From: Miscanthus floridulus
Lineage: Eukaryota > Streptophyta > Magnoliopsida > Poales > Poaceae
Length of the DNA stretch: 64,000 nucleotides
Direction of reading: 5' to 3'
NCBI RefSeq assembly: GCF_019320115.1
Contig: NC_089593.1
Span: 14,536,789 to 14,600,788 of the forward strand
The position numbers and the translations under genes are program-made. Below the pieces are notes generated by a model that saw only the letters and a list, made by a program, of their open reading frames with translations, was not told where the DNA came from and searched no databases. Shown piece by piece: positions 4,963 through 58,074 of this stretch (within the stretch, counting starts at the first letter, position 1; each line of letters opens with the position of its first letter).

Positions 4963-4964
<2 letters not shown>

Positions 4965-5529: not shown

Positions 5530-5877
5530 ATGTATGTTTCAAGTGTTTCAGTCGTTTCAGATGTATGTTGCAATTATTTCATCTTGATGTTGCACAAGTA
5601 GATCAGGGATGTTGCAAGTGTTTCAGAGACATGTTGCAAGCGTTTGTTCTAAATGTTTTATCTGTTTTCAAACGTCTGTTGCAATCTTTTTTTTTCTGCA
5701 TGTTGCATATGTTTCACACTTATGTTGTAACAGTATGTTCCAAAATGTTTCAGTCTTACGTTGTAGCAAGTGGTTTCATGTTGCAAAATAAAAATCTAGA
5801 TGTTTCGTGTGTTTCACACACATATTGTAAGTGTGTGTTCTCAATATTTCATCTACTTTCAAACGTATGTTGCATTC
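5530..5877. repeat. Degenerate TGTTGCA/GTTTCA repeat region
   Basis: About 350 bp built from variants of ATGTTGCAAGTGTTTCAGA. The same composition resumes for a few dozen bases after 9896 (TTATGTTGCAAGTATTATATG), so this repeat is the original target into which the solo LTR at 5878-9896 inserted. The parent element type is not known to me. Confidence 0.6.
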
Positions 5878-9896: not shown

Positions 9897-10349
9897 CATT
9901 CAAATTTTTTTTATGTTGCAAGTATTATATGTTGTATGGCTGGTGGCAAGTGGACTAGGCATGTGGCGCAATAGGGGGCCGAAGGATGGTGGTGCTGCGG
10001 TCGGGGCACGCTGGGGGCGTGCTCATTCTCAACTGCTCATACCAGCTCCTGAGTGCTGCTCGCGTGGAGAGAGAAGGGGGTCAGGGGCGACTGGCAGACA
10101 CAGAGACAAGGCGCACGTGGGGCAAGGCGAAGGCGGACAGAGGAGGGCTGCACGGGCGTCTGGACATGCGCGTCCGTCTGATCGCCCGGGTGCTAGCCAT
10201 GCCCTTCATTATATGTACTGTGGCCGCAATTATAGTAGCAGCTTCTCTAAATGTTACATTGGGGCTACCCTGACGACGGATCAGACAGACGGATGGATGG
10301 ATCACGTCGTAACGTCGCATTGGATCGGATCCCCTCATGTTGACTAATA

Positions 10350-32239: not shown

Positions 32240-35200
32240 CTAGCCACTGGAGCTGACCACGCCCTGCGCGTCTAGCGCGTCCAGGTGCGCGCCCACCGCG
32301 CGCTCAGCGCGCTCTGCGTCGCGGCGCACGTCACGGGCCCGGCGGCGTCTGGAGTACGTGCGCCCGACCATGACATCTCTCCCCCCATCGAGGAGCAGCT
32401 CGTCCTCGAGCTGGAACTCCGGATACTTGGTGCGGAACATGTCGACATCTTCCCAAGTAGCAGACGCGGCGGACTCGCCCTTCCACTGGACAAGGACCTG
32501 ATGCACCCCGTGAGCCAACCTGAAGCGCACGGCACGTTCTGGTTCTGGGGCAACAGCGCCATGATGCAGAGGCGGCAGGGGTGGGGCTGTGTCAGGCGGC
32601 GTTCCCTGGAATTTCTTGAGCAGGCCGACGTGAAACACGTCATGAATGCGTGCTCGAGGTGGCAAGGCGAGGCGGACAGCGACGTCGTTGATCAGCTCGG
32701 TGACGCGGTACGGTCCGAAGAAGCGGGGCTTGAGCTTGCCGGTAACAGCTTGGGGCAGCGAAGATGCCGCACGCTGGCGTAGCCGAAGGAGCGCCCAGTC
32801 GCCCACCTGGTAAGCGACGTGGCGGTGCACCTTGTCGTAGTGCAGCTTCTGCATCGCTTGAGCTTGCTCCAGCCTGAAGCGGACGTCGGCCAGGAACTCC
32901 TCGCGCTCCTCCATGCTTTGGGCGACCGCAGCCACCCGTGTGTCCCCCGGTTCGTACGACCGGATGGACGGCGGCTCGCGCCCGTAGACGACGCGGAAAG
33001 GCGTATCCTGCAGCGAAGTCTGGTAGGCGGTGTTGAAGACAAATTCCGCCCATGGTAGCCACCGGAGCCACTGGCGTGGCCTGTCTCCCGTGAGGCATCG
33101 CAAGTACATGATGATGACGCGGTTAGCAGCCTCCGATTGCCCATCCGACTGTGGATGGAACGCCGTCGTCATGTGTAGCTTGGTACCCATCAGGCGCATG
33201 AGCTCCCGCCAGAATGTCGACGTGAAGACCGGGTCCCTGTCCGACACCATGGACTGAGGCACGCCGTGTAGGCGAACGACGTCGGTGAAGAAGGCTTGCG
33301 CGACTGACTCGGCGGAGTATGGGTGTGCCAGAGCGATGAAATGGCAATACTTGCTGAACCTGTCCACCACGGTTAGTATAACAGATTTGCCACGGACGCG
33401 GGGCAGCGCTTCGACAAAGTCGAGGGCGACGTCGGTCCAAACGCCCTGAGGCACCGGTAGCGGAAGAAGCAGACCAGCCGGGTGCAAGTGCTCCGACTTG
33501 TACTGCTGGCAGACGACACACGTGCGCACCAAGTCCTGCACTAGCTGCTTCATGTTAGGAAAATGGAAGTCGTGCCGCAGGCGATGCAGCGTGCGCTGAA
33601 CCCCCTCATGTCCGTCTTCGTGAACTGCCACCATGATCTCCTGAACCAAGGGAGAAGCCGGCGGTATGTAAAGTCGGCCGGCAAACTGTATCATGCCGTC
33701 GGCGATCGACCAGTGATCCCCGCGAGAGCCGGCGTTGATGTCTTCACGGAGGGCCATCAGAGCCGGATCCGTGTGCTGTGCCTGGCGGAGACGATCGACG
33801 AAGTCGAAGCGTGGCGCTGAAAGTACCAGGAGCGCCCCCTCCTCTGTGTCACGCCTAGAGAGCGCGTCGGCCACAGCGTTCACCGCACCCGGCTTGTACT
33901 CCACGGAGAAGTCGAAGCCCAGCAGCTTGCCCACCCAGTGGTGTTGCGGGATGGTGGCCAAGCGCTGATCCAGCAAGTACTTCAAGCTGTAATGGTCCGT
34001 CTTGACGAGGAAGCGGCGGCCCCATAAGTATGGCCTCTAGTGGCGCACAGCATGGACCAGCCCGATCAGCTCCCTTTCATATGCGGCGAGAGCGCGGTGG
34101 CGTGGTGCCACGGATCGGCTGAAGAAGGCGATGGGGTGCCCTTCCTGAACCAGCACCGCCCCAAAGCCATGTGACGAGGCGTCGCACTCGACGACGAAGT
34201 TTTTGGTGAAGTCCGACATGGCCAGGATGGGAGCCGTTGTGACCGCTGCCTTGAGCGCGTCAAAAGCTGCAGCGGCCTCCGCATTCCAGGAGAAGCCATC
34301 CTTCTTGAGGAGGGTGGTCAGCGGTGCCGCGACAGCTCCGTAGTTGTGGACGAACTTGCGGTAGTAGCCCACCAGTCCGAGGAACCCGCGCACCGCTCGC
34401 GCCGAGCGAGGCACTGGCCAGTCGTGAATGGCCTGTACCTTGGCCGGATCCATGGCGACGCCTGCCTCCGAAATGACGTGGCCGAGGTAGGAGACGGAGG
34501 TGACGGCGAACGCACACTTGGAGCGTTTAACGAAGAGGTGCTGTTGGCGTAGCTCGGCGAGGACGGCGCGTAGGTGACGAAGATGATCCGCCCAGGACTT
34601 GCTGTAGATCAATATGTCGTCAAAGAACACAAGTACAAAACAACGTAGGAAGGGGCGGAGTACATCATTCATGAGAGCCTGGAACGTTGCTGGGGCGTTG
34701 CAGAGCCCAAACGGCATGACCAAAAACTCATAAAGGCCGTCGTGGGTGCGGAACGCCGTCTTGTGGATGTCCGCCGGCCTCATGCGCACCTGGTGGTACC
34801 CCGAACGCAAGTCGAGCTTTGGAGAAGAATCGGGCGCCATAGAGCTCATCCAGCAGCTCGTCGACGACCGGGATCGGAAAAGCGTCCTTGACCGTGAGCG
34901 CGTTCAACGCGCGGTAGTCGACACAGAAGCGCCACGACCCGTCCGGTTTCTTGATGAGGATGACCGGGGAGGAGAACGCCGAGTCGCTGCGGCGGACGAT
35001 GCCTTGCTCTATCATGGCGGCGCACTGTCGCTCAAGTTCGTCCTTGTGAGCCGCCGGGTACCTGTACGGGCGCACCACCACCGGAGGGGAGCCGGGCTTG
35101 AGGACGATGTGGTGGTCGCGGCCCCTCGCTGGTGGCAGGCCAGACGGCTCGGCGAAGACGTCAGCGAAGGAGTGCAACAGCCCCTCGATGAGGGCGTCGT

Positions 35201-36631: not shown

Positions 36632-37538
36632 TGTTGATGCAAAAGTGATCTGCAAACACAAAGGGCTAATACCCGAATCGATATCCAAAGCGTGCCAGTC
36701 GATTTGACCTGCTAATCGACAAGGATGAAGAAACGAACACTTTGGTCCTGACAACAGCGATACGCCCGGAAGTCACGGCCAAGAGGTGCTCACGCGGAAC
36801 TCGAGAATCGCCGAAGATCGCACTGAAGCGATGCAGCTCGCCGAATCAATGAGAACTCGTAAAAAGAAAAATATGCAAATTGACGAAGTCGCCGAAAAGT
36901 AGATGTAAATAGGAGTAAAAGTTGGTTTTGATATTGATTGATGTTTTTTATTACATTGCCCTTTACTCCATATTTATACCCTGATCTAAAGAGACACAAC
37001 CAAACACAACTAGGACACCAATCCCGTATCTAAGGAAACACGTGACTCTTACACGAATTATAACCTAACAAATACAGAAAAGGAAACCAACTCCTATCTA
37101 TTTCCCTGTCCGCCTTAATTACGATGGAAATCTCACTGTCCTCCTTCCCATCGGCATACCCCCTATTTCATCGGCAGCAGGCTTCAAGTCTTCCTTCATC
37201 GGCATACTCCCTGCTTCATCGGCAGTAGTCTTCAAGTCTTCCTTCATCGGCATACTCCCTGCTTCATCGGCAGTAGTCTTCAAGTCTTCCTTCATCGGCA
37301 TACTCCCTGTTTCATCGGCAGTAGTCTTTAAGTCTTCCTTCATCGGCATCGACAACAACTCCTCCAACCTCATCGGCAACGCCCGAGTCCAAATCAACCT
37401 TTCCATCAATCATCACCAACTATCGGCAACCATTTTTACAAACTGGCTTTCATTGGCTATCAAAGTATTCAATAACTTTCCCCTTGCCGATTGGTCCACT
37501 CCGATTATTTTGACATGTGCAAAAAAACGGTGTCAACA
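36632..37538 (-). repeat. 3' LTR of the Tat element
   Basis: Minus strand TGTTGACACCG to GCATCAACA. The TATA box TATAAATA at 36971-36978 separates a U3 of about 560 bp from R/U5. U3 holds four tandem 48-bp units. Confidence 0.95.
37149..37340. repeat. Four tandem 48-bp units in the LTR U3
   Basis: Units at 37149, 37197, 37245 and 37293, each with two CATCGGCA motifs (CATCGGCATACTCCCTG and TTCATCGGCAGTAGTC). The same array is in the other LTR at 48824-49015. Because 48 is divisible by 3, it stays open as a 16-residue repeat on the minus strand, giving a 96-aa frame in each LTR, which I regard as incidental. Confidence 0.93.
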
Positions 37539-37555
37539 CATGCCCCCCAATTTTG
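37539..37555 (-). promoter_or_regulatory. Polypurine tract of the Tat element
   Basis: Minus strand AAAATTGGGGGGCATG immediately upstream of the 3' LTR start TGTTGACACC. Expected site of plus-strand DNA priming. Confidence 0.75.
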
Positions 37556-37961
37556 GAGTATAAAACCATTAATGCTCCGAAATTTACTCCAGATAACGCT
37601 TGCCTTTGCCCAATTACCGTAACTCATTCTCCAAGCCAAAACTTGATTTGTTATCAAATCCAATCAAATCTAATCTTGATCCACGCACCTCAGTAAATAT
37701 CGCACAATCGCCAACCACTCTTGCCTTGATTGAGATACCAAAATAATAACCCATCGGCAAGATCCTAACATGATAATGCTGCCATTTTAAGAATTAAAAT
37801 ATCATGTATCAATATCCCTTCCAAGTCATGATTGCTTGTTATTAACTCATCTGTACAATCCCCTGATTATCGCGCGAATAGTTACCATATCCCCCTGCAC
37901 CGCCTTGACCTATATACGCGCGTCATAGAGATAAGTCCAAAATACCCTTATCCTGGCCGGC

Positions 37962-37971
37962 TTATAAATAG
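37962..37971 (+). promoter_or_regulatory. TATA box of the antisense PMD gene
   Basis: TTATAAATAG lies 163-172 bp upstream of the ATG at 38134 and is followed by a C/T-rich leader. This is consistent with a dedicated RNA polymerase II promoter driving transcription opposite to the retroelement. Confidence 0.55.
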
Positions 37972-38133
37972 ATTTCTCCAGAACCCTCATTTTCTATCTT
38001 CAGCCTCCAATCCTTGGCATTCTCTCTCTCCGGCGGCGACTCCGACGAACAACCGCGCGACCTCAACCAACCAGAACCCTTCTCCGGCGCTAACTTCAAG
38101 TCCCCGGCTCGTATCTCCACCTTCCTCAAGACA

Positions 38134-41100
38134 ATGGCCATCAACTTCGACGTCCCCGCGGTTCGCTCCACTTCCATTACCTTTTACTTTGATCTTTTTG
38201 CAAATTTATTCAGTTGGTGATTTTTCTTTTCTTCTGTCTTCTGGATTCCATAACCTTAGGAACTGCGCAACAAATTAGTTATCCCAACCGATCAGCCACA
38301 CGTCCAATGCCTTGGACCAATGGGCAACCCAGATCCAACCGATCTGATCGACGCAGAGGTTAACAGAATCCCCTTTAGAGCCCAAAATTTCTCTCTGAAC
38401 TTGTGGAAAGACACATTCCGATCTTGGCCCAAAACCACCAAAGGGTGGAAAGATTGGTATTTGAGGGTCAATAGATCGATGCAAGTATACTGGGCAGAGC
38501 GAAAGTTAGACCAATGTATCAGGCTCTCTATTGCCGACATGCAGAAAAATGAATCAATGATAATTGCAGCTGCTTATTTCTGGTCAGATACGACCAATAC
38601 TTTTATGTTTGGACATGGCCCAGCTACCCCTACCCTTGCCGATGTCCACATGCTTACTGGCTTGGACATCTCAACTGCCGATGAAGGCTCCATCTATGGT
38701 AGAAAGCCTGAATATAGAGTGAATACCCGTAACATCGGCGGTTGGACAGGATATATTCAAGAATACCAGAAAACCGGGACACCTAGCCAGAGGGAACATG
38801 CCACATTCCTGAATATGTGGTTAGAAAAATTTATCTTCTGTGGCCGATCAGTAGGACCAACCAACGCCTTCCTCCCTGCAGCTGAACTTCTGGCTAATGG
38901 CGTAAGGTTTCCTCTTGGCCGATACCTTCTGAGCTCTACTTATCATCTTCTTCACCAAGTGTCTCAGAAACTCCTGCTTGGCGAACCCATCGGCAACCTG
39001 GGAGGCCCGTGGTGGTTCATCAACATGTGGCTGAATGCCCATATGCACAAACGTTTGCAATGGGACTTCTTTGCTCAACAATTCCCACGAGAAATTGCTG
39101 AAGATTACGTGCTCGGGGATGATGAATCGGCAACACGCTCACCCCTCAATTTTGGTGAAGCCATAATTGTCCTTCCTGGAACAGAAGCCAACGAAGACCA
39201 AATCGGCAGATTCTTTCAAAGCTTCTATAATGGCCTTTCTCGTGATCATAGGGCCTGGGTGCCTTACATCGACGAAGAAAACAGATTCCCCCTTCTTTTC
39301 AACTTTGCCGATGACACTCTGAATCAAGATAATGAGCTCATGATGGCTATCATCACTCCCAGGGCAATTCCAGTAAACACATTCGGCAGCGGGAAAAACA
39401 CCAACATTACATATGAATTTTACAACCCATCGGCAGTATCCCGCCAATTGGCTTTTGGGCAACTGCCAATCAAACTCTGCTTTGCCGATGTGATCAAACC
39501 CAGGGAAACAATCACCTGCGGAACAGACTGGAACAAGGTAGTACAACTTTCTCCTGATGCCGATACCACAGATGTTGATATATCCACCTGGACACCAATA
39601 TCTTTCATCACCGAGTCATACAAGCAATGGTGGCGAGAGTGGAAAGAGCAACTGTTCGCGACTTCTGCTCACACATATCGGCACATGATCGATTCTGAAT
39701 ATGCCATCCCTGACGACGCGGTAAGTTTCCTTGAACTCCCTTCTGCTTTTCTTTTCATTTATTAGTAACTGATTCCCTTGTAACAGGTTAACAACCCAGC
39801 ACCATCGGTGAGCAAAAGTGGGAAACCCTTCAACCTCCGGCCTATTTCCCCAACATCGCCGATCGGCTACAACGCTCCCACCTTAGCCGCTTTGACCCAC
39901 CAGAAGATTCGTACTAAGACCATCACTTCTAAGTCCAAATTGGCTACATCCAGGGCTACCCCATCGGCCGCTGCTACAACCTTGGTCAAAGCCTTTAAGG
40001 TAACAACCTTGTCTATTTATTTATTTTCACTTATGCCGATCACAAACTACATTAACCTTAATCATTAGGGGGTAAGAGCCGCTACGGGATCGTCATCGGC
40101 AATTCCGCCGATATCAAGCACCACTCCTTCAGAGGTAGCTTCTTGACTTTACATTTTATCTGTTAAATATCATATCTCACACTTGTTTTGCAGCAACAAC
40201 TGGGCACATCGGCAAACGTACCAGATGCCCAAGCTTCACAACCAACAAGTGTTGATGCCCCCCAGCCAATCATTGCCGATGTCCAAGCAAAGCGCAAAGC
40301 TTCAACAGATACTGAAGCACAGCCAAAACGACAAAGGTCTATGCCGATCCCTGCATCTGCCCCAATGTCATCGGTCATCATACCTCAAGAGCCTACCACC
40401 GATGAAGTCACAGAGGATATCCCATCGGCAAGCTCAGCCGATCCACACGACATACTCCAGGTTGCTTCCTCCAGTCAAGCACAGGAAATTGCCTTGAAAC
40501 AGGTAAACCGATCAACCTATCTGATTTTACAATACTCATACTTACCCCCGATTGATCTCCTTGTCTTTCTTTCAGGAACAAGATTCCCCGAACAGCCTAT
40601 TTTCCTTTGCCATTGACATTTCTGACGATGATGGAGAGGAAACAAGTTCTTCCCTTGCACTGGGAACAATATCGGCAGAAACTAAATCCAAGTTGGAAAC
40701 CCTCCTGAACTTGCTACAGCAAAGTACCGCCCAACTGGTAGATGACTCGGACCCCGCAAAGGCAATCTTCAAAACAATTCATGGCCAGGTCCCTGCCGAT
40801 GTTGAAGAAATACTCTTCCCAGCAGCTCACTTAGAAAGCCGTCAACTGCAATATCAACGGGCTGCTCAGCGCATTGCCGATAGAGCAGCTCAAGCTCAAC
40901 TTAAAGGAGAGATGCTACAACTGAAACAAATCGCTGATGAGAAGCACAAGGGCATCGTCAACTTGCAGACTTCGGGTGCTGCACTTAAGCAGAAAATCTT
41001 GGATCTATCGGCAAGGAAGGCAGCTCTATTGGCTGAATTGAAAGAAATTGATGCAGCCTTAACTCATGTTCAACAAGAAGAAAGCCAGCTACCCAATGCT

Positions 41101-41271
41101 GTCAAAGCCCTTCAGCAAGAAAGAGATATCCAAGCTCGCAAAGCTTTAGCCATGAAGAAGAAACTCAAGCCTGTGGAAGGTGCTGCCGATGACGATATCA
41201 AAGAAATGGAAGAAGCTGACCAGATTCGCCTGCGTGCGATATTAGCTATCCAATCCTTGCTGAACGTGTAA
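38134..41271 (+). CDS. Plant mobile domain (PMD, aminotransferase-like) protein, antisense gene in Tat element
   Basis: Six exons with GT-AG introns and unbroken phase: 38134-38160, 38260-39720, 39787-39999, 40069-40134, 40194-40502, 40576-41271 (TAA). They encode about 923 aa. The large second exon carries the PMD fold (DMQKNESMIIAAAYFWSD, GPATPTLADVHMLTGLDIS, GPWWFINMWLNAHM). PMD proteins occur in plant genomes as MAIN/MAIL-type nuclear proteins acting in silencing and as transposon cargo. The middle exons are low-complexity and Ser/Pro/Lys-rich, with a basic AKRKASTDTEAQPKRQR that could be a nuclear signal. The last exon forms a long coiled coil (about residues 770-900). The start ATG (AGACAATGG) follows a TATA box at 37962. 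Stop and integrase stop are only 86 bp apart, tail to tail. No lesion is visible. Function is inferred only from family membership. Confidence 0.88.
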
Positions 41272-41357
41272 TCTTATTTATTGTATCGGCACTTTATGAG
41301 ACATTGATACCCTTGCATAATTCTTAGCCGATAATACTGTTATCGGCACTTATACTT

Positions 41358-44300
41358 TTATGCATCTGTCCAGATACTAGGGTAATATTTCTTTAAATAT
41401 TTTCCATTTAACGCTCTGGGAAACACAACCCCTTCGAGGGTTTCTAAAATATATGCATTACCAGGAATAGACTGATTTATCCGATATGGACCTTCCCAAT
41501 TAGGAGACCACTTTCCAAACTTTGAACTTTTAGTCCCAATCGGTAAAATCAATTTCCAGACCAGATCTCCATCGGCAAACTCTTTTACTTTCACCTTCTT
41601 GTCATACCATCTAGCTACTCTTTTCTTATTTTCTTCAATACTAACTAAAGCCCTTAACCGATGACCTGCCACATCTTCCAACTCATCTTTCATAAGAGTA
41701 TTATACTCATCGGCTGTTAGCTGATTTTGAGAACGTATTCGTCTAGAGCCAACCTTAATTTCCCAAGGCAACACTGCATCGTGTCCATATACTAACTGAT
41801 AAGGCGTTACTTTGGTTGCACCATGGCATGACATCCGATATGACCACAAGGCTTCATTTAATACTGTATGCCACCTCCTAGGATTTTCTTCAATTTTGCG
41901 CTTAATAAGTTTGATGATCCCTTTGTTAGAAGCCTCAGCTTGACCATTAGCTTGAGCATAATATGGAGAAGAATTTAAAATTTTAATTCCCATACCTACA
42001 GCAAACTCATCAAATTCTCCCGATGTAAACATAGTACCCTGATCGGTAGTGATAGTCTGAGGAATACCAAATCGGTAAACAATATGCTCTTTCACAAAAT
42101 CAATCATATTGACCGATGTAACCTTTTTTAGAGGAATCGCCTCAACCCACTTTGTGAAATAATCGGTAGCAACCAGAATAAATTTATGTCCTTTACTCGA
42201 TGGCGGATAATCTGACCAATGAGATCAATAGCCCATCCCCAGAACGGCCATGGTTTGATTATAGGATTCATAGCCGATGCAGGCGCTCTTTGAATATTAC
42301 CAAACTTTTGACACCCCTGGCATCCCTTAAAATATTTAAAACAATCTTCAAGAATAGTCGGCCAATAGTACCCATTCCTTCTGATCATCCATTTCATCTT
42401 GAAAGCCGATTGATGTGCCCCACATACTCCTTCATGAATTTCACCCATCAAGCTTTTCGATTCATCATTGCTAACACATCTGAGTAAAATTCCATCTATA
42501 GTTCGATAATATAATTCATCATCGAGGAGCACATATTTGGTAGCTTGGAACCTTATACGTCTCTTAACCTTTCTACCTGGATCCTTTAAATAATCGACAA
42601 TCTCTTTCCTCCAGTCATCGGTATCAACTGCCGATGTTAGCACTTCCTGAATGGTCTGATACCCTGAAGCATGCTGAGCTAGTCGATTAGCTTCCTCATT
42701 ATGCAATCGAGAGATATGCTCAAGACGAAAATCTCTAAATCCTTTCAATAATTGCAAACACCTTTCATAATACGAAATCAAGGCCTCACTTCGGCATTCA
42801 TAAGTTCCAGCCAATTGATTTATAACTAGCATAGAGTCACCAAAAATTTCAACAACATCGGCATGTATCTCCTTCAGCAATTCTAACCCCTTTATCAAGG
42901 CTTGGTATTCAGCTTGATTATTTGTCGCTGTAGCAACAATCGGCAATGAAAACTCATACTTCTTTCCTTGAGGTGAAATTAACACAATGCCGATACCTGC
43001 CCCTTCACCACATGTGGACCCATCGAAGAAAAGTGTCCAGGGAGCAATCCCCAGAGAATCCACCGTGTTACAATGCTGAGTGACGAAATCAGCCATCACT
43101 TGCCCTTTAACTGCCTTAGCTGATTTGTAGCGTAGTTCAAATTCTGATAATGCTAAAATCCACTTGCCGATTCTACCACTTAATATCGGCATCGACAGCA
43201 TATACTTGACCACATCGTCTTTGCATATGACCATACACTCGGCAGATAACAAATAATGCCTTAATTTGACACAAGAAAAGTATAAGCACAGACACAATTT
43301 CTCGATAGCCGAATACCTCGTCTCAGCATCCACTAATCTTCTGCTCAAATAATAAACAACACGCTCCTTCCCTTCAAATTCTTGAATAAGAGCTGAACCG
43401 ATAACTGTATCCTCAGCTGACAAATACAACCTGAAAGGCTTCCCATGTTGAGGTGGAACTAGCACTGGAGGATTTGATAAATATTTCTTAATTTCATCAA
43501 GGGCTAATTGCTGTTCAACTCCCCATACAAATTCCTGATCAGCTTTTAATTTAAGCAGTGGGCTGAAAGCCTTGATCTTACCCGACAGATTAGATATGAA
43601 TCTTCTAATGAAATTAATCTTACCGATCAAAGATTGCAATTCAGTCTTATTGGCAGGAGCAATCACCTTGTTAATTGCATCAATAGACTTCCCACTGATT
43701 TCAATGCCCCGTTGATGCACCATAAAACCCAAGAATTGTCCTGCCGATACACCGAATGCACATTTATTAGGATTCATCTTCAATCCATGCCTCCTTGTGC
43801 ACTCCAGTATCTTTCGTAGATCGGCTAAATGTGCTGTGATATCCCCAGACTTAATCACTACATCATCAATGTAGATCTCCACTAATGTGCCGATGTACTC
43901 ATGAAAAATAAAGTTCATAGCCCTTTGATAAGTAGCACCGGCATTTTTCAAACCAAACGTCATGACTATCCACTCGAACAACCCCACATGTCCTGGACAT
44001 CTGAAAGCAGTCTTGGGAATATCCTCCTCAGCCATGAATATTTGATTGTAACCTGCATTACCATCCATGAAGCTAATAATTTGATGTCCAGCCGCAGCAT
44101 CAATCAACAAATCAGCAATCGGCATTGGATAGCCATCCATCGGTGTGGCTTTGTTGAGATTCCTGAAATCAATACAAACACGAAGTTTTCCATTTTTCTT
44201 ATAAACAGGAACCACATTAGAGATCCACTCTGCGTATCGACATTGCCGAATAAACTTTGCTTCAATTAACTTAGTTATTTCGGCCTTAATGTCAGGAAGT

Positions 44301-44593
44301 ACATTAGGGTTGCATCGGCGCGCTGGCTGCTGATGTGGCCGAAATCCAGATTTGATAGGTAACCGATGTTCAACTATCGATCGGTCTAACCCAGGCATCT
44401 CAGTATAATCCCAAGCAAAACAATCTTTATATTCTTTTAACAAATCTGTTATTCGCTGCTTACACTTAGAATCTAACTTAGCACTAATAAAAGTAGGCCT
44501 CGACCTATCACCATCACCGATATCTACTTCTACTAAATCATCTGCCGATGTGAACCCTTGGCCTAATTTTCCGTCATCGGCAAACCTATCCAT
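41358..44593 (-). CDS. Tat element pol: RT, RNase H, archaeal-type RNase H, integrase (one frameshift)
   Basis: Frame 44593-42128 starts MDRFADDGKLGQGF. RT spans roughly residues 60-330 with catalytic EIYIDDVV near 240. RNase H follows (YYLSRRLVDAETRYSAIEK). A second, archaeal-type RNase H (TLFFDGSTCGEGAGIGIVL, NNQAEYQALIKGLELL, IFGDSMLVINQL) is diagnostic of Tat elements. The integrase zinc finger is HEGVCGAHQSAFKMK and CQGCQ. Near 42218 a T appears to be missing (minus strand GGTCAGATTATCCGCC), shifting the frame in the integrase core. The core continues in another frame to 41358 (ITTDQGTMFTS, YYAQANGQAEASNKG). The rest is intact. The lesion could be real or a homopolymer error. The initiating ATG overlaps the gag-protease stop as TAATG. 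Confidence 0.93.
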
Positions 44594-47500
44594 TAAAACT
44601 CCTCTTCAGAACCGACTGCTTGGATCGGTGGAATCTCATAATCAGCAACTCTAAGGAACTCTTTTTCCCAAGCTTCTCCTGATATGCATTTGGTTCGCTC
44701 ATAAGTATCTGATTCTGCCGATGCGATGATATAAGAAGAATCACCAGGGACGACCTCAATCTTATCCCCAATCCACTGTACGAGGCATTGATGCATTGTA
44801 GAAGGAACACAACAATTAGCATGAATCCAATCCCTCCCTAGAAGCAGATTATATGCACCCTTGCCGTTGATAACAAAGAACGTCGTTGGCAAGGTTTTGC
44901 TGCCGATGGTCAATTCAACGCACACTGCCCCTTTAGCCGGTGACACATTGCCTTCAAAATCTTTCAACATCATATCGGTTTTGGTCAAGTCTTGCTCTCC
45001 CCTACCAAGTTTCCGATACATCACATAAGGCATAATATTAATCGCAGCTCCTCCATCAATAAGTACCTTAGACACAGGCTGCCCATCAACTCTGCCCTTC
45101 ACAAATAAAGCCTTAAGATGCTGTCTCTCGTCATCGGTAGGTTTCTCAAAAACAGCCATCATTGGATCTAGCGTTAGCTGAGCTACTTGATCAGAGAAAA
45201 CAACTTCTTCCTCATTATCAGATATTGCCAGAAACTCCATCGGCAACATGAATACCATATTAACATCTGCCGATGGACCCTTATTTTTGTGTTTTATTTG
45301 CCACTGCTGATGACCAGGCCTTTCATTGGAGGAATTTTCCTCCTGGTATAAATCCTCCTGACGCTCACGTTGCATCCTCCTTCTCTGCGTCTTTGTCAGA
45401 CCCTCTGGGCACCATCGAGGAAACTTGGTCTTCCAAACCGGCTGATAACAAGTCCTAGTTGATTCTACGCGACGTATATTAGGGTCCCTGTAGAATATTT
45501 CCTCATCGGGAACTCTTGCGTTTGCCATCTCCTCAAGCTCCTCTTGATTCCTTGGAAAATATCCAGCGCGTTTACCAAGCCTCTCATGTACACTAAGTCT
45601 GCCCCCCAGCCGATCATGCACTGATGCTCTGCCTCTGATCGGCTCGTTGATAGACAAACCCTGATTTACACGTTGAAACCTCCTTTCTGAACGATTGACT
45701 CCGTAATAACCATTACACTCAGGGCAATTTTCAACAGTTGGCAATTTAATACCTTCTTCCCAGCAATGGATGAAGAACGGACATCTGCAATGATCTTTAT
45801 GTCGATTCCACTCTTCCTGACGTCTCATTTCTTGCTGTTGCCGATATCGGTCATTACGTTGATGCCAACCCTCCTGCTGCCTTCGATGAGTAATCACAAT
45901 GCCAGGTCGAGGAGGTTTTTTGGAACTACTGCTTTCTCCTAGCAAACCCTTACTTTTTGCATCATCGGTAGTTATCCGATGTTGGGGGTCTACTGACGCA
46001 TTTTTCTCAGCAGCCTCTGACGTCAACACCTTGGTCTTTCCTTTGGCATCCAACGTATTTGCTGGAAAAGGATGTTGATCAATTTTCATCGGCTTCTGGG
46101 TCTTGGAAATACCAAACTTAATTCTCCCAGATTCAATAGCCGATTGTAACTGTTGCCTGAATACCTTGCACTCATTTGTACTGTGTGAAGTTGCATTGTG
46201 CCATTTGCAGTACAAAATCTTCTTCAACTCTTCTGCCGATGGGATCACGTGATTAGGTGACAGCTTAATTTGGCCCTCTTGAAGCAGAAGATCAAATATT
46301 TTATCGGCCTTGGTGATATCAAAGGTAAACTTTTCTGGCTCTTTTTGACCAAAGGGACATGATATCGGCTTTTTATTCTTAACCCACTCAGCTAAGCCGA
46401 TAACTGGTTCTTCATCAGAGTCAGAATCTCCTACTTCTTCAACAAATGATACCTTTTTACTCCAGTTCTTTTTAGGTTCAAAAACCCTAGTATCTTGATC
46501 AGAGATCCTTTGCACAAGATGACTGAGGCTTTCAAATTCCTGAGAAGCATATCTGTCCTTAAGATGTGGCAATAACCCCTGGAAAGCCAAATTGGCAAGC
46601 TGCCGATCATCCAGCACCAGGCTGTAGCACTTATTTTTTACATCTCGTAGCCTTTGTACAAAGCTTTCTACCGATTCATCATTACGCTGTCTCAATTTTA
46701 CTAAATCGGTAAGCTTCTTTTCATGGATTCCAGCAAAGAAATACTTGTGGAATTGTTTTTCTAGATCAACCCAAGTAATAATAGAATTTGGTGGCAATGA
46801 AATGAACCATGTAAATGCTGATCCAGACAAAGATGATGAAAATAATCGAACTCTTAATTCATCTCTGTTAGCTGCCTCTCCACATTGAATAATGAAGCGA
46901 TTGACATGTTCCATTATGGATGTATCATCTTGCCCAGAGAATTTAGTGAAATCCGGTACCTTGTACCGATTTGGGAGAGGAATTAAATCGTATGCAGGAG
47001 GGTATGGGGTCCGATAAGAATAAGTATTGACCTTGGGCTTTATCCCAAACTGATCCTTCATAATCTCTGCTATCTTATCGGCCCAAAAAGCATCAGCCTC
47101 CTGCTGACGAACTGGTTGAATTTCTACAGGAGGTGCCTGCTGACATCCTTCCACATATCTTTGTGGCCCACGATCTCCAGCAATCGGCATATTTGCCGCT
47201 ACTTGTGGTCCATTAACCTGTTGGAAAGGATTCATCGGCTGGGCTGCCGATGCTTGATTCTGGAAACCAGCTTGCATATGACCTTGTTGAATCCCTACAA
47301 CCTGCTGATTTCGCTAAACTGTATGTTGAACAGGTAACTGTCCTGACCAATCATTATTAGAACTCATCGGCACAAAACTTACCGATGGCTGGTAATTTGC
47401 TGATATTGTTGGATAATTATAACTGGTTTGAGGCATGAACTGAACCCCAGTTTGACTCATAGCAGGGGCTTTCTGCTGCATCGGCAGTACGCTCGCCGAT

Positions 47501-48270
47501 GGACTTGAATTGAATGTTTGAATCATAGGCATCTGGAAACCTCCTGGAGTTGGTTGTACAGAAGTAGTTGCGGCATATTGAGGCACTTGAGCCATCGGCG
47601 AAACGGCCGATGATATAGGCGCTCTTGCTGCTGCATCAAATACTTGAGGTAATCTAGGATTGAAAGCAGATGACTCTGGAGGCATGTCATATCCCCACCA
47701 ATTAGTAGGAATCTGGTTATTCTGAGACACAGGACCTGACATAGCTGATGCCGATAGATCTGTATTAAGTTGAACTCGCCCTCCTGGTAACACCTGATCT
47801 GATTGTATCGGTGTAGATTGTATATTAGGTGAACTTGCCAATACTGGAGGGGAAGTAACTTCTGTACCCACAACGGCCGAAGGAGCCGATGGAGTTTTGA
47901 CAGATGCCGGCTCTGGTTGATGATAGGCAGGCCCAACGTAATGTGGTGCCGCTTGTCCTTCTTTGAGAGTTCGAACCACAGCATTATGAACAGTATTGGA
48001 CAGCACATTGGAATGATTAATCAAAGCATGATTTACTGCAGAATTAACCATCTCTTGAAGTTTACCAGGATTGGAGTCAAAGGTCACCTGCCGAGGCAAC
48101 GGCAAATCTTGCTTCTGGATGACTTGTCCACTCTTGTTCAAGCTAAACGATCTCAGACAAAGCTGCTTGTATTCTTCTACAGCCTTTTCCATAGCCTGCC
48201 TCTGTTCTTCCTTGAGATCTTCTTCTGATACTGCGATAATGTTCCCTGGATCGATCTCGGAGTTGAACAT
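44593..48270 (-). CDS. Tat element gag-protease, with one in-frame TAG
   Basis: Starts MFNSEIDPGNIIAVSEEDL at 48270, just inside the primer site. The N-terminal ~318 residues are Pro/Gln/Ser-rich. A TAG at 47316-47314 follows QLPVQHTV, after which the same frame continues (RNQQVVGIQQGHMQAG) to 44593. The capsid-type retrotransposon gag domain lies around residues 410-560 (VPDFTKFSGQDDTSIMEHV, FAGIHEKKLTDLVKLRQR). A zinc-knuckle-like segment (CKWHNATSHSTNECKVF) follows, then a retroviral-type aspartic protease with VLIDGGAAINIMP and LLLGRDWI. The TAG may be a CAG-to-TAG mutation. Its context is not the classical readthrough context. Gag assembles particles and protease processes the polyprotein. 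Confidence 0.9.
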
Positions 48271-48281
48271 ATTGGTTGAAG

Positions 48282-48303
48282 TGTCCCACCGGGCGTGCCA
48301 AAA
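48282..48303 (-). promoter_or_regulatory. Candidate primer binding site
   Basis: Minus strand TTTTGGCACGCCCGGTGGGA lies four bases after the end of the 5' LTR (…ATCAACA), where a tRNA primer site is expected. The complement ends in GTGCCA. I could not assign the tRNA species. Confidence 0.6.
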
Positions 48304-48307
48304 GATG

Positions 48308-49213
48308 TGTTGATGCAAAAGTGATCTGCAAACACAAAGGGCTAATACCCGAATCGATATCCAAAGCGTGCCAGTCGATTTGACCTGCTAATCGACAAGG
48401 ATGAAGAAACGAACACTTTGGTCCTGACAACAGCGATACGCCCGGAAGTCACGGCCAAGAGGTGCTCACGCGGAACTCGAGAATCGCCGAAGATCGCACT
48501 GAAGCGATGCAGCTCGCCGAATCAATGAGAACTCGTAAAAAGAAAAATATGCAAATTGACGAAGTCGCCGAAAAGTAGATGTAAATAGGAGTAAAAGTTG
48601 GTTTTGATATTGATTGATGTTTTTATTACATTGCCCTTTACTCCATATTTATACCCTGATCTAAAGAGACACAACCAAACACAACTAGGACACCAATCCC
48701 GTATCTAAGGAAACACGTGACTCTTACACGAATTATAACCTAACAAATACAGAAAAGGAAACCAACTCCTATCTATTTCCCTGTCCGCCTTAATTACGAT
48801 GGAAATCTCACTGTCCTCCTTCCCATCGGCATACCCCCTATTTCATCGGCAGCAGGCTTCAAGTCTTCCTTCATCGGCATACTCCCTGCTTCATCGGCAG
48901 TAGTCTTCAAGTCTTCCTTCATCGGCATACTCCCTACTTCATCGGCAGTAGTCTTCAAGTCTTCCTTCATCGGCATACTCCCTGTTTCATCGGCAGTAGT
49001 CTTTAAGTCTTCCTTCATCGGCATCGACAACAACTCCTCCAACCTCATCGGCAACGCCCGAGTCCAAATCAACCTTTCCATCAATCATCACCAACTATCG
49101 GCAACCATTTTTACAAACTGGCTTTCATTGGCTATCAAAGTATTCAATAACTTTCCCCTTGCCGATTGGTCCACTCCGATTATTTTGACATGTGCAAAAA
49201 AACGGTGTCAACA
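48308..49213 (-). repeat. 5' LTR of the Tat element
   Basis: 906 bp, one substitution and one 1-bp indel from 36632-37538. It carries the TATA box TATAAATA at 48646-48653 and the four 48-bp repeats (48824-49015). Confidence 0.95.
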
Positions 49214-51292: not shown

Positions 51293-52814
51293 TATTTTTA
51301 ACTAACCAAATCTTTTTTAATAGTTTCTTTATCTCTTATGGCTTTCTCATCTGAAATTCTTTATTTTCTTAATTTAAGCATGCATCCAATTTACTCGGAT
51401 CTTCCGAGAAAAAAGCCGGACGAGGAGCGGATATGGAGTTCTTCTCGACTGCGGAAACTTACAAATTTGACAGGATATTTGGTAGCTGTTTATTTTTAAG
51501 GAGCCCTTTTTACCAAACTATTAGAGAACACTTTTGCTAAAATGTTGAAATACGGAGTTGTTTTATAAAAATCCCCCAGATGCTCTAAATAAATTAGAAT
51601 AACCAAATAACCACTTTGGTCCGATAGGACTGAGTTGCCATTCCAATCTGGTTGGCACGACCAGAGTCCCACATTTGCATGCCATGCCTCTGCATAGATT
51701 GTTGCCATAAGATTGTCCTATCACGCGATGCATATAGATTGTCAAAAGTCTGAGGTCTATGGTCCCAGTCTATGCCTCGCGTGTTGGCCTGGCCCATGAC
51801 CTCGCGTTTTGGCCTAGTCTAAGCACGACACAACCTAATGGCCGTTGTGCCCATGCTAGTTTGGCCTGATGTACATGCCGTGCCTGGGTCACTACCTCGC
51901 CACGTCACTCTAGCTAGGCTCCACACAATTAGTAGGAGGCCGACTAAGGTTCATCACAGCCACCTCCACCTCTCATATATAGTGAACACATTCCACTCAA
52001 AAAATAAATAAATATATGTGAACACACCAAAACCCTAACTTGCTAACTCCAATTTCCATCTCACCCAATAGACATTCATCCACATGCCGCACTGTGTTCC
52101 CTCTCAAACACCCCTATTCCCATTTCCTTCCCTTCCACTGCGCCTTCCTCCTTCAACGGAAGCTCTCCTCCACGCTCTACTCCAATATTGGCTCCCCTTC
52201 CCCTTCTCCACTAGTGCGAGCAACAGTGGCGCATTGGTAGGGGTAGGGGCGCGGTGGGATCGGTGAGCCCTCAGCCCATACTGACACAACTAAGCCAGTG
52301 TAGACCCGTGCCTAGGCCAAAGCCACATCCATTGGCAGGCACCACATGTCACAGTGAGCAAATAGTGTTGTGCCAGCCCGACACTAATCGAGTTGTGCCT
52401 TAATGGGTCCATGCCGTGTGCCGTCTAGGTTGTCCATTTGGATATAAATCTTATAACCAAAAAGATCCAAAATTATATATCAACTCATGCATTCAAAGAT
52501 AGGCTTGGACACTGCCCACTAATTTGGCATTGCGGAACCCCACCTGTATGCATGTAAGAGTGCGTTTGGTAGGGCTCTAAACTCTTGTAGAAATGTTTCG
52601 GATCTAGATTCTCCCTTAAAACATTTCAGGTGACGAATCGGAATCACTTTGTGAAAGCGTTTGGCTGATATACTTAATTAATCACCTCTAAACTGCCAGG
52701 TGATGAATTTGGTGAAACCAGCCTTTGTTCGACTCATGTTTCTAGGCAAGAAACTAGAAACGTTTCTACGCCAAAAAGTTTCCTGCTTTCACCGTTTAGT
52801 AGTTTTGAACGCAA
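51293..52814. other. Intergenic stretch without recognised gene
   Basis: From about 51770 to 52450 the sequence is rich in GGCCTGGCCCATGCC/GTGCCAGCCCG phrases, as in subterminal regions of some hAT or Mutator elements, but no ends were found. Around 52560-52840 a TTTGGTAGGGCTC phrase suggests a degraded MITE. Confidence 0.35.
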
Positions 52815-53995
52815 TGGCAGGAGCTCTGCCTTTCAATTAAGTGATAATGAAAGAGAGTTTATGTACAAGCAAAAGAGAGGCACACTCCATAGTGGAGCAT
52901 TATAGGGAAGCACTGTCCACTAGGGGAGGCAGCAGCTATGCATAAGCAAAAGCTCTCTTTCTGTCCTCTATATCTTCCTTAATTCTTGCAGCCACCTGTA
53001 GTACTGTTTATGTTGTTGAAAATTCTCATGTTTTTCTCTTTCCAAATATTCTAGAATGTGTAGATTATCACCACGTTCTGCCTTCTACGTTCAGAGTTAG
53101 GCACTCTGCTCACCACCTCCTCCCACTATGTTCTGATGTGGTCATGTGGATAGGGGCAACTTCGAGGTGTGACTGCAGCTCAGTGAAGTTCTCCCAAGAG
53201 AGGATTTGGACCCAAACCGCCTTTGCAAAGGGACAACACAAACAAAGGTGAAGGCCGGTTTCTAAGGGTCCATTGCAAAGCACGCAGTGTTCTTGGTCTG
53301 GCCACCCTCTCTTTTGTAGGTTGTGCGCCGTAGGAATTTTGTCTTGTACTAGAATCCAGGCGAAGATGTTACATTTGTTCTCCACTTGTGCTCTCCAGAT
53401 TTGGTCGCTATGGAAAACACCGAAGGAGCCTCTGAATTAGATCCGGTAAGCTGAGCAGGTGGAGTAAGCACCATCCAGGGTCCATCGCTAGGTGATGGAA
53501 TCCTGAACTCCCTGTTGCAGGTGTATGTCCTGGATCCTTAACCAAAGGGACGACGCGAATTTTTCAATGTGGACAGCCGAGGTGATTCTCCCCCTTAGCG
53601 AGCGCATCCAATTGTTGTTCTGAAGCTCCCGTTGCACTGTTATGTTCTTTCTCGAAATAAGCTGGAACAAGTGTGGGGCTAGATGCTTGGGAGCTTCTCC
53701 CTCGAGCCAGTTATGGTGCCAAAATCGAGCCTTTGTGCCATCACCCAGCGTTATTATGATTGAGTTGAAAAGTAGGCAATCGACATTACTGCAAGGAAGC
53801 TCCAAGCCAAGCCACGGCTTGGACTGTTCTACCCATTCCTGCCAGAGCCATTGTAAACGGAGAGCTCTACCAAATCTATCAAGGTCAGGCACCCCTAAGC
53901 CTCGAAGATCCTTGGGTCTGGTAACTGTTGGCCAGTTAATCAGACAGTGACCGCCATTTGCATTGTCTTTAGAAGTAACTAGCTGAGAATCTGGA
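52815..53995 (-). mobile_element. L1-type LINE fragment, 3' end of ORF2
   Basis: On the minus strand the frame at 53892-53488 (GDGTKARFWHHNWLEGEAP) and another at 53385-53110 (KIPTAHNLQKRGWPDQEHCVLCNGPLETGLHL) are separated by a frameshift. Both match the C-terminal region of plant L1 ORF2, including the RT-associated zinc-binding domain with its CVLC...H pattern. The 3' end reads TTGTACATAAACTCTC and TTAATTGAAAGG. RT and endonuclease are absent. Confidence 0.8.
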
Positions 53996-54517
53996 AAATT
54001 TCAGCTTGCCGAATTAACGCACTATCAGCACCTACTTCCAACTAATTTGGCGGTATATTAGTGCTAGCCCAAGTCAAATGTATCAGCTGTTTTAGGAAAT
54101 CCAAACGGCCTGCATTGCCAACCGGGGCCACTTATATAGCAAACAAAAAGGCACAGAAAGGTTTGTTTGGAATGCAGGAATTTCGCAGGAATTTCACATG
54201 ATTTAGTTCAAGTTCACAGGAAAATGTAGGAATAGGGAAAAATTCCCGCGTTCCAAACAGGCCCTTACATCAGATGGTTCGCAGTTCATGTTTTGTTCTT
54301 GTTCCATGTTGGAATTTCCTGCAAATGTTTCTCTGCCTCCTCAACAACTGGTTGTTGGGAACCGCAGCCACTGAAACAATCATATCCGCGGTAGACAGCT
54401 CCAAACTATACACTGTATGTGCAGAAGGATTGTCTTGACTACTTAAAACTATTGGTCCAGTGTATTTATCCAGAGGTGTTCGCGTGAGTATCCACGCTCC
54501 ATGGATATCGTACCTTC
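53996..54517. other. Intergenic stretch without recognised gene
   Basis: Contains a degenerate element-like segment (about 54160-54270: TTTGTTTGGAATGCAGGAATT ... TTCCAAACAGGCCC, an imperfect inverted pair). Confidence 0.4.
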
Positions 54518-54760
54518 AGCACGTGTTTAGTTGCCACCCTAAATTCTAAAAAAGTGCTAAGTAGCTATCACATCGAATCTTGCGATACATGCATGGAGCA
54601 TTAAATGTAGACGAAAAAAAACTAATTACACAGTTTGGTTGGAAATTGCGAGACGAACGTTTTGAGCCTAATTAGTCCATGATTGAATACTATTTGCCAA
54701 ATAAAAACGAAAGTGCTACAGTAGCCAAATTTCCAACTTTCACCCAACTAAACACACGCT
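54518..54760. mobile_element. MITE of the GTGTTTAGTTG family
   Basis: AGCACGTGTTTAGTTG at the left and CAACTAAACACACGCT at the right are terminal inverted repeats. The interior carries the grass block ATGCATGGAGCATTAAATGTAGAC ... GAGCCTAATTAGTCCATGATT. The right end abuts the LINE coding sequence directly and no target duplication is seen. Confidence 0.75.
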
Positions 54761-54763
54761 CAC

Positions 54764-56161
54764 TTTGTGGATGATTGTATTGTCTTCTCTGAAGCGTCGC
54801 AGAGGGAGGCCGATAGGCTTCGAACGATCCTTGATATTTACAGCAGAGGCTCGGGGCAGCAGGTAAACCGTGACAAATCTGCTATCTTTTTTAGCAAGAA
54901 TTGTCTGGATGAGGTGAAGGAGGTGGTGCGGCAAGAGCTGAACATAGATACTGAAGCTTTGTCAGACAAGTACTTGGGCTTGCCAATAGCGCTTGGCCGA
55001 TCTACCACTGAGGCGTTTGAATTTATGCCGACCAGAGTTAAGGGCCTTGTTGGCACTTGGAGCGGCAGACAGGCGAGCAGAGCAGGAAGGGAGGTTCTTC
55101 TCAAGTCGGTGGCACAAGCGGTTCCCACTTACTCAATGAGCTGTTTTCTCCTTTCCAAAACAACCTGCAAGAAGATGAGATCCACAATTGCCAACTATTG
55201 GTGGGGCAGATCAGCAGATAACCGACGAATACATTGGCTACGTTGGGATGGTTTGACTCAACACAAGTCGGTGGGAGGCATGGGTTTTCGTGATCTGCAC
55301 CTTTTCAATAAGGCAATGTTGGGAAAGCAAGGCTGGCGTCTGATTACTCGGGTGGACAGCTTGTGTGCCAGAGTTCTCAAAGGAAGATACTTTCGTGACT
55401 CATCCTTTCTAGACAGCTCGCGGAAGAGGCATGCTAGTCACACCTGGAGATCAATCATGGCTGGGAAAGAAGTGCTTGTCCAGGGCCTGATCAAGAGAAT
55501 AGGAAATGGGGTTTCGACAAACATCTGGCAAGATAGATGGATCCCAATGTACTTCAATGCCAAGCCGATTGCGCCCAGTGAGGGGCAAGAGGTAACGCTG
55601 GTGTCGGATCTTATGCTCGACTCGGGTCAATGGAATGAAGAACTGATAAAGGCTGTCTTCCTTCCAATTGATGCGAGGGCTATCCTTCGTATTCCTCTAC
55701 GGTCACAAGAAGAGGACTGGTGGGCGTCGGAGCCAGAGAAATTTGGTGATTACACAGTGAAGTCGGCATATAGGAAACTACATGGGCCCAGTACGGATCA
55801 TGCTGGACTGGTACCTGGGGTTTCGAATGATGCATCCTGGAATAAGCTGTGGAAACTTAATGTCCCGCCCAAAGTTAAGGTATTTTGGTGGAGAGTGCTA
55901 CATGAATTCCTACCTGCCAAAGATATTCTTAACCGGCGTCATATTGAACCGACTGGTTTCTATGAGGTGTGTGGACCAGACAAAGAATCAATCAAACATG
56001 TCCTTACTGAATGCACCATTGCTAAACTGTTTTGGAGAGAAGTCAGGGTTCAAATGGGTGTCAAGCTTCCCCGGCTCCACCCTATTACTTGGGCAAGTGA
56101 TTTACTGTCCGAAGGTTTTTGCTCTGAAAAGGACCGATGTCTCTTCATAATTGGGATGTAA
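54764..56161 (+). mobile_element. 5'-truncated L1-type LINE (ORF2 from RT catalytic motif to zinc-binding domain)
   Basis: The frame is open for 464 codons. It enters exactly at the RT catalytic motif (FVDDCIVFSEAS), continues with GQQVNRDKSAIFFSKN and KYLGLPIALGR, then the long connector (WWGRSADNRRIHWLRWDGL). It ends in the RT-associated zinc-binding domain (WNKLWKLNVPPKVKVFWWR, CGPDKESIKHVLTEC). It stops at 56161 without the usual RNase H or tail, and the CACTA element at 56178 begins 16 bp later. No stop codon inside, but it lacks endonuclease and most of RT. Confidence 0.88.
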
Positions 56162-56177
56162 TCTTTATCGTTGCAAA

Positions 56178-57609
56178 CACTACTACAACGCAGGATATAG
56201 TAATGCCAACTTGTGTTACTATAGGTTGGAAAAAATGTTACTAGCTCTTAGTAACATTTTTTTGGTCCAATTGGCTATGTTACTAGAGACTGGTTTATTA
56301 TAACATATCTACTTGTCTACAGGAACATTTGTCTAGTGTTACAATGATTTTTGTTATAACACTTTTTTTTTTTGCTCTAGTAACACTTCACATTATGGTT
56401 GAACGCATAATTTGTAACACATTTATTTATTTATCGGAACTAGGCGCAGAATTGACTTTCTCTAATGAAGGTAGATGAACATAATACACTTGTTCTAACT
56501 GCATGATCATGATGTACAACTAAGAGTTGTTGGTCACTAAGAGAATATGTCAAATTAATGTAGGCTGGGTCCATGGTGCTATTAATGACTTCAAAATATC
56601 CTAATAAGGCCAATGTAGCCTATGCAACTCTCTTCAGCACTGATTCAAAAGCCATTGTTGGTGGAGTTAAGACAGAAAGTCAATTCTACAAAGTGTGTAT
56701 CAATCATGCTATAGCAAAAGATGAGCCATTAGTGAGGCCCGTGCCTGGGTGTAACAATATTGGTGATGCTCAAGCTAAAGGACTCCCAATTGCTTGGCCT
56801 TCGAGGTTTGTATGTTCAAACTAGCTTTCTTAAATTTACATCAATATACATATGTGGCCTAATTTGTAATATTACAACTTACATTTTCTTTGCAGGTTAA
56901 AATGATTAATGGTTGAATTCCTACATCAATGTGAACAAGAAGAAGCAATGGACTTTATGAATCCCATCTTGTTCTTGAAATTTTCTTTCTAGTATGGACA
57001 ATGTGTGTTTGCTCTCTAGAGCTATATCGTTATGTACATACACTATGATTTGATCTGAACAAGCACTATGTTTAAAATCATCCTACAATATGTGGATCTT
57101 GCTATGATTATGGAAATTTGTGGTTTATGTGATTTTGCAATGTGTCATGTTTGTGTGATTATATAATAATATGTGTGCCACATGTATAGGAGAAATAAAT
57201 ATTTGTTTCATAACCTGAATATGTTACAATAGATATAAAATAGTGTTACAAACCATGTGTTCCTTTGTTCCATACTGTGCTCTACCATAATGTAGAAGTG
57301 TTAATAGAACTAAAAAAAGTGTTACAACAGACAACACTAGGCAAATGTTCCGATGAATAAATAAATGTGTTACAAACTATGCGTTCAACCATAATGTGAA
57401 CATTGTGAAGTGTTACTAGAGCAAAAAAAAGTGTTACAACAAAAATCAATGTAACAAATGTTCATATAGACAAGTAGATGTGTTATAATAAACCAGTCTA
57501 TGGTAACATAGCCAATTGAAACAAAAAAAAATGTTACCAAAAGAGCTAGTAACACTTTTTTCAACCTATAGTAATATAGGTTAGTGTTGCTATATCCACT
57601 GTAGCAGTG
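56178..57609. mobile_element. Foldback CACTA element
   Basis: CACTACTACAACGCAGGAT at the left and TCCACTGTAGCAGTG at the right bound 1432 bp. The first ~280 bp and last ~270 bp are long imperfect inverted repeats of each other (for example ACACATTTATTTATTTATCG against GATGAATAAATAAATGTGTT), rich in GTGTTACTAG/CTAGTAACAC. The middle carries a transposase-derived fragment (56573-56824). Flanking trinucleotides AAA and ATG do not match. Confidence 0.8.
56573..56824 (+). pseudogene. CACTA Tnp1/En-Spm-type transposase fragment
   Basis: 83 codons including VAYATLFSTDSKAIVGG and AKDEPLVRPVPGC, ending AKGLPIAWPSRFV. This block is conserved at the C-terminus of plant En/Spm (Tnp1-like) proteins. It has no catalytic domain and ends at a splice-like boundary (TTTGTATGTTCAAACTAG). 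It is a remnant within the non-autonomous element. Confidence 0.7.
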
Positions 57610-57639
57610 ATGAAGATTATAATCCTGTTTCTATATGAT

Positions 57640-57641
<2 letters not shown>

Positions 57642-57673
<32 letters not shown>
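57642..57673. repeat. Poly-G tract, 32 bp
   Basis: Uninterrupted run of 32 G between the CACTA element and the PDR promoter region. Length uncertain. Confidence 0.95.
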
Positions 57674-57674
<1 letters not shown>

Positions 57675-57789
57675 AGCTCTAAACAATACAGTGTATGTGG
57701 ATGTGGATGAATGAATTCGGTAAGCTGTCTGTGTACATCGATGCCATTGCCATGTACAGACAAAAGGAAAGAAATTAAGGAGTCAACCC

Positions 57790-57972
57790 ATGCCTGCGGC
57801 TGTATCTGTATGCCCAAGTCAACATGTCTGCATGCAGCTGTATCTGTATGCCCAAGTCAACATGCCTGCATGCAGATGTATCTGTATGCCCAAGTCAACA
57901 TGCCTGCATGCAGCTGTATCTGTGTGCCCAAGTCAACATGCTTGCGGCTGTAGCTGTATGAAGTCAACATGG
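57790..57972 (+). repeat. 38-bp minisatellite with W-box in every unit, PDR promoter
   Basis: Units at 57800, 57838, 57876 and 57914 (last truncated), plus a partial unit to 57972. The consensus begins CTGTATCTGTATGCCCAAG and continues with TCAACATGCCTGCATGCAG. Each unit contains AGTCAAC, whose complement is the W-box core TTGACT. Counting the flanking copies near 57781 and 57963 there are six in about 190 bp. The array lies directly upstream of a TATA-like box and the PDR start codon. Confidence 0.9.
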
Positions 57973-57987
57973 CTGCTCTTCCTACAT

Positions 57988-57998
57988 ACTATAAGTGG
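57988..57998 (+). promoter_or_regulatory. TATA-like box of the PDR gene
   Basis: ACTATAAGTGG lies about 80 bp before the chosen ATG (58075), leaving a plausible short leader starting near 58020. Confidence 0.45.
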
Positions 57999-58074
57999 GA
58001 GACAAGACAACAGCAAGTGCAGGACGACGACAACGAGTAGTAGGAGGGAGGGCAGCGCGCGCATGCGCATTGTG

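Follow-up and report, generated by a model that had tools for sequence, protein, structure and literature searches.

The hexamer ATCGGC saturates a Tat-type retrotransposon of Miscanthus floridulus and may be read by the element's antisense-encoded plant mobile domain protein

Organization of the element and its antisense gene

We analyzed a 64,000-nucleotide stretch of Miscanthus floridulus DNA from contig NC_089593.1 (hereafter the window), in which a complete Ty3/gypsy retrotransposon with long terminal repeats (LTRs) is saturated with the hexamer ATCGGC and its complement GCCGAT. The two LTRs (907 and 906 bp) have TG..CA ends (TGTTGATG..TCAACA). Pfam matches for gag, protease, reverse transcriptase, RNase H and integrase follow each other in Ty3 order on the minus strand, and a gene on the plus strand lies between integrase and the 3' LTR (Table 1). 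The anatomy (LTRs, Ty3 order and antisense open reading frames) is the basis on which we name the lineage, and it supports a Tat-type Ty3/gypsy element. VANDAL (MULE) elements are DNA transposons without LTRs or reverse transcriptase, and the element, with its LTRs and gag-pol, is not one of them.

The antisense gene encodes a plant mobile domain (PMD) in its first exon, with a PF10536 match of 83 bits against a curated cut-off of 34.9. Its later exon blocks encode a basic linker and a region weakly matching DUF1409, and the protein ends in a long stretch of helices resembling a coiled coil. Published work describes Retand/Tat elements as carrying a long region from pol to the 3' LTR with antisense reading frames, and a DNA-binding regulatory role has been proposed for the TRP28 protein encoded there (PMC11963269). 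The position of the antisense frames is thus shared with Retand/Tat, whereas the gene product here combines a PMD with a DUF1409-like part; a scan of three antisense frames at E 0.01 gave no match to the TRP28 domain PF04195. The predicted structure of the PMD part matches the fold of VANC21, the protein of the Arabidopsis DNA transposon VANDAL21. VANC21 gave no sequence match to the element's protein in the PDB, and Foldseek searches of the PDB and BFVD returned no significant match. A structure model of the whole antisense protein was poor and was left unused.

Table 1. Positions of the element, its parts and the inverted motif pairs in the window
Feature	Position	Strand	Remarks
Complete Ty3/gypsy (Tat-type) LTR retrotransposon	36632..49213	- (gag-pol strand)	GAGCT 5-bp target-site duplication on both sides; 99 ATCGGC/GCCGAT
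3' LTR	36632..37538	-	48-bp tandem repeats at 37149-37349; 12 motifs, 11 in the same orientation
Antisense gene, first exon	38320..39726	+	plant mobile domain PF10536; predicted fold matching DNA-bound VANC21
Antisense gene, later part	39787..41268	+	exon blocks 39787-39999, 40069-40134, 40191-40460, 40573-41268
Inverted pair ATCGGC-N6-GCCGAT	40095..40112		
Integrase (rve) frame	41358..42224	-	motif-poor
Reverse transcriptase, RNase H and integrase zinc-binding frame	42128..44605	-	15 motifs
Gag and aspartic protease frame	44593..47313	-	18 motifs
Inverted pair ATCGGC-N6-GCCGAT	47234..47251		
Inverted pair ATCGGC-N6-GCCGAT	47594..47611		
5' LTR	48308..49213	-	99.8% identity to 3' LTR; 12 motifs

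Excess and placement of the hexamer

No hexamer is more frequent in the element than ATCGGC, which has 99 sites (58 ATCGGC and 41 GCCGAT) in 12.6 kb compared with 10 in the other ~51.4 kb of the window. An earlier sequence-only reading had counted about 99 sites where some 6 would be expected, with a handful outside, and the exact counts bear this out. In whole-element shuffles (200 each), keeping 2-mers gave a mean of 4.5 sites (maximum 12) and keeping 3-mers a mean of 10.4 (maximum 22). Shuffles that keep 4-mers reached a mean of 62.4 (maximum 79), as is expected once one word recurs this often. The internal region without LTRs holds 75 sites, where the 2-mer and 3-mer shuffles gave 3.6 and 7.4. 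We also scored words in 24 segments of 5 kb across the 64 kb. ATCGGC scores 17.5-22.7 in five segments lying mostly or wholly inside the element; a segment overlapping the element by 1.7 kb scores 9.4, ATCGGC is not at the top in one overlapping by 0.9 kb, and no hexamer scores above 8.8 in segments free of element sequence.

Codon usage was assessed by shuffling synonymous codons within each of seven frames, with protein and codon usage kept (500 shuffles per frame). The observed number of sites exceeds every shuffle in six of the seven: 18 sites against a maximum of 6 in the gag-protease frame, 15 against 10 in the reverse transcriptase-RNase H frame, 13 against 7 in the PMD exon, 7 against 4 in N-terminal gag, and 5 against 4 in each of two further antisense frames. 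The sole exception is the integrase frame, whose 2 sites were matched in 18 of 500 shuffles. The internal sites are split almost evenly between the strands (36 plus and 39 minus), and in the longer frames they occupy all three codon phases. The sequence-only reading had argued from the use of several frames on both strands that codon bias is insufficient; this holds for the longer frames, whereas the 7 sites of N-terminal gag are all in one phase. The saturation exceeds what composition and codon effects produce, and explanations by composition, codon bias or a single reading frame are rejected by the shuffles and by multi-phase, both-strand use. The motif is very probably a protein-binding code at the DNA level.

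The near-equal use of the two strands also bears on whether the motif serves another step of the life cycle, such as targeting of integrase to existing copies, nuclear import of cDNA or packaging of RNA. The motif does span the entire transcript, as such a role might use. The strand split speaks against a single-strand RNA signal, and we rejected a signal at the RNA level because both strands are used about equally; integrase targeting would have no need of sites inside the incoming element. We consider a role of this kind very unlikely.

Site density is high midway along the antisense gene, at 14.5 per kb, and in the LTRs, at 13.2 per kb; it falls to 2.6 per kb in integrase and to 1.4 per kb in the spacer that separates the LTR from the antisense gene. 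The placement in LTR repeats, gag, pol and antisense exons described from the sequence alone is retained; of the 29 sites of the antisense gene, 1 is intronic by the exon blocks of P0002, and the 3' spacer is poor in sites. The predominant context is (C/T)ATCGGCA, with C or T before the core and A after it; CATCGGCA is the putative target site. No conservation is seen further out. This matters for the view that the sites are a mutational or compositional artefact, produced by context-dependent mutation bias, by codon usage or by spread through tandem duplication or gene conversion. Such a view can point to the LTR sites, which sit in 48-bp tandem repeats (2-4 units, variable among 30 copies), and to the 4-mer shuffles, which still yield 62 of the 99 sites. 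Conservation, however, stops one base out from the core on either side, so that no longer unit was copied around, and the synonymous shuffles likewise argue against an artefact.

Divergent relatives, inverted pairs and control loci

Relatives were searched in the 2.68-Gb genome. The family of the window's element is large: of 6832 first-look candidates 86 were scored, all of them 98-100% identical. For a divergent comparison we used two elements from the same genome, L069 and L070, whose PMDs are 38.9% and 40.1% identical to that of the window's element; the DNA of L069 is alignable to it only in the integrase part and a few short stretches. L069 holds 40 sites against 3.2 expected and L070 holds 45 against 3.0. 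In both, the core is mostly followed by T (T-type), compared with A in the window's element (A-type). Sequence comparison thus indicates that the core word is kept despite diverged proteins and DNA, while the flanking base has switched. ATCGGT is also raised in the A-type element (29 in 37538-48305 against 4.3 expected) and is not enriched in the T-type elements (4 in L069, 6 in L070), so that T may be tolerated as the last core base in one family.

L069 and L070 are 68-89% identical where alignable. Sites common to both make up 11 of 22 in one and 11 of 24 in the other, where the background of identical 6-mers predicts 4.6 and 4.5 (P 0.002 each). The remaining sites are found in one element only and have thus been gained or lost, although both elements are decayed and part of the losses is decay. 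Unshared sites beside retained ones are the pattern expected from selection that acts more on density than on place. In a set of 30 young copies from the window's family, shared variants fall in 4 of 238 motif columns and in 148 of 4089 other columns; their lower frequency in the motif is in the expected direction but not significant (P 0.14).

Seven inverted pairs of the form ATCGGC-N6-GCCGAT were found, three in the window, four in L070 and none in L069; if one mismatch is allowed, the window and L070 each gain a further pair. Random placement of the sites gave 0.22 such pairs on average over 5000 trials, none of which exceeded 4, and in 1000 random trials no class of orientation and distance exceeded 4. 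The constant spacing, which sets the half-site centers about one helical turn apart, suggests that the motif is read by a protein dimer.

A Pfam search for PMDs yielded 30 loci that have no match to the window's gag, pol or later antisense exon, and these were therefore used as non-Tat controls. None of the 30 has a comparable word (best score 8.8 for 6-mers and 10.3 for 7-mers), and a 4.5-kb piece of the element scores 26.2 and 32.3 on the same measure. Together with the other 5-kb segments and the fixed inverted spacing, these controls count further against an artefact, an explanation that is already disfavoured and that we regard as scarcely credible. The strongest control words in the 4 kb around non-Tat PMD genes are ATGTTGC (12 times, score 9.9, L050) and CGCCGAG (9 times, score 10.3, L060), which may represent other element-specific words that occur less densely.

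Alternatively, a host DNA-binding factor might read the motif, the element having captured an enhancer-like or boundary function; the compact half-site with inverted pairs, as in dimeric plant factors, speaks for this. LTR repeats often carry sites for host factors. The saturation of coding DNA and the flank change between A-type and T-type elements agree better with a reader that is specific to the element and coevolves with it than with a host factor common to both, and 10 sites in the surrounding 51 kb point to no special host use. We hold this alternative to be quite unlikely.

Other candidates for motif-rich DNA were set aside. The double motif had 16 hits in the genome, and the 8 loci examined, each with 2-5 sites in 3 kb, do not match the element's proteins. 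Viral contigs gave no match to the PMD, reverse transcriptase and P0006 queries. The dense-motif pattern occurs there in at least 120 stretches, with 80 loci counted; among the matches listed, site density peaks at 5.4 per kb, in a piece of 1.5 kb, and the next five have 3.6-4.2, with a G+C content of 62-69% apart from one at 48%, and these stretches were not used. The exception in G+C content (L125) has its sites in an array, with nine ATCGGC within ~100 bases at 1972-2077; this is likely a coding-region repeat that has no relation to the element.

A candidate anti-silencing code and other repeats in the window

We infer that the ATCGGC word, mostly as (C/T)ATCGGCA, would be the recognition site of the element's own antisense-encoded PMD protein. 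The protein would bind as a dimer, the dense sites would raise its occupancy along the entire element, and the bound protein would strip silencing marks (methylation or silent chromatin) from the element and its copies, allowing it to escape silencing by the plant. As gag, pol and the antisense gene contain sites as well as the noncoding DNA, the whole element body rather than the promoter alone would be marked as self. The PMD protein is probably the reader of the motif. Anti-silencing as the outcome we favor slightly, and the explanation taken as a whole receives the same guarded preference. The majority of sites, however, are lone half-sites, and the effect might have the opposite sign, as the PMD proteins MAIN and MAIL1 favor silencing (PMC7156037).

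The closest parallel is VANC21, which binds YAGTATTAY and for whose location motif density is reported to be important (PMC5735166). VANCs cause silent marks to be lost, and subgroups differ in the last base of the target motif (PMC5735166; PMC10398659), the C-type and T-type variants of VANDALs resembling the flanking-base switch described above (PMC5735166). Both systems have an element-encoded protein, with a matching fold predicted here, a short motif that is abundant within the element and rare outside it, and motif-bearing tandem repeats of variable number (PMC5735166). The dispersed, VANC-like DNA signal proposed from the sequence alone is in this respect supported by the predicted fold and the dense motif. 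In contrast, the VANDAL motif lies mainly in noncoding arrays of single orientation, a trait found here in the LTR repeats only, and the sites of the present element are mostly coding, on both strands and partly in inverted pairs; no sequence match between the two proteins was detected in the PDB, and the function of ours is putative. Maize TnpA, a different protein, binds a short motif repeated near the ends of the CACTA element Spm, its sites being subterminal in a DNA transposon and not dispersed through coding DNA. TnpA switches on the element that encodes it, and this activation correlates with demethylation (PMC10398659), an activity of the kind proposed here. A saturating motif goes unmentioned for Retand/Tat in the excerpt of PMC11963269, and among the open-licence papers listed by our literature searches no title or abstract opening describes such a retrotransposon motif or a PMD-VANC fold link, although a paper naming the hexamer alone could have escaped them.

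The PMD protein may instead bind the motif as an ordinary transcription regulator, either activating the LTR or antisense promoter or acting as a self-limiting repressor. MAIN and MAIL1, host proteins of the PMD family, are needed for the expression of genes sharing a promoter motif, DOWN, and promote silencing of transposable elements (PMC7156037, PMC9899485). Antisense retroelement proteins have also been proposed as regulators (PMC11963269), and a regulator would suit the high motif density seen in the LTR and midway along the antisense gene. A promoter regulator, however, has no need of 75 non-LTR sites across gag, pol and the antisense gene, and the predicted fold match is to an anti-silencing protein. 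We consider such a regulator unlikely.

DNA transposons are known to use sequence-specific anti-silencing (VANC, TnpA). If it extends to LTR retrotransposons, which make up a large share of big grass genomes, it would help to explain their bursts despite methylation, would provide a function for the enigmatic antisense genes that Tat elements carry and for the PMD family, and would imply that coding DNA has been bent to carry a dense binding code. The hypothesis is directly testable, as it concerns a single protein and a single 8-base site. More tentatively, and with some doubt on our part, the PMD may be VANC's DNA-reading module, a transposon-born domain of sequence-specific anti-silencing. 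Tat elements would then have rewritten a self/non-self code into their own coding sequence, as a password every ~130 bases, with families drifting to new passwords, and host MAIN and MAIL1 would be captured anti-silencers turned guardians.

Another retroelement, with minus-strand Ty3-like pol frames, lies at 32240-34903 near a 100-N gap, and the hexamer is not enriched there. Two other word clusters were seen in the window. At 6900-7380, GCACCGC and related words are clustered in both orientations (CACCGC 14 against 2.5 expected in 2501-10000), with CACTAGA also enriched there (8 against 0.9); these are possibly subterminal repeats of a CACTA element. At 56210-57550, GTGTTAC/GTAACAC is clustered on both strands (GTAACA 19 against 3.7 expected in 52501-60000), with a tandem array of 38-bp units beside it at 57791-57945, and this cluster looks like the subterminal repeats of a DNA transposon, possibly of CACTA type.
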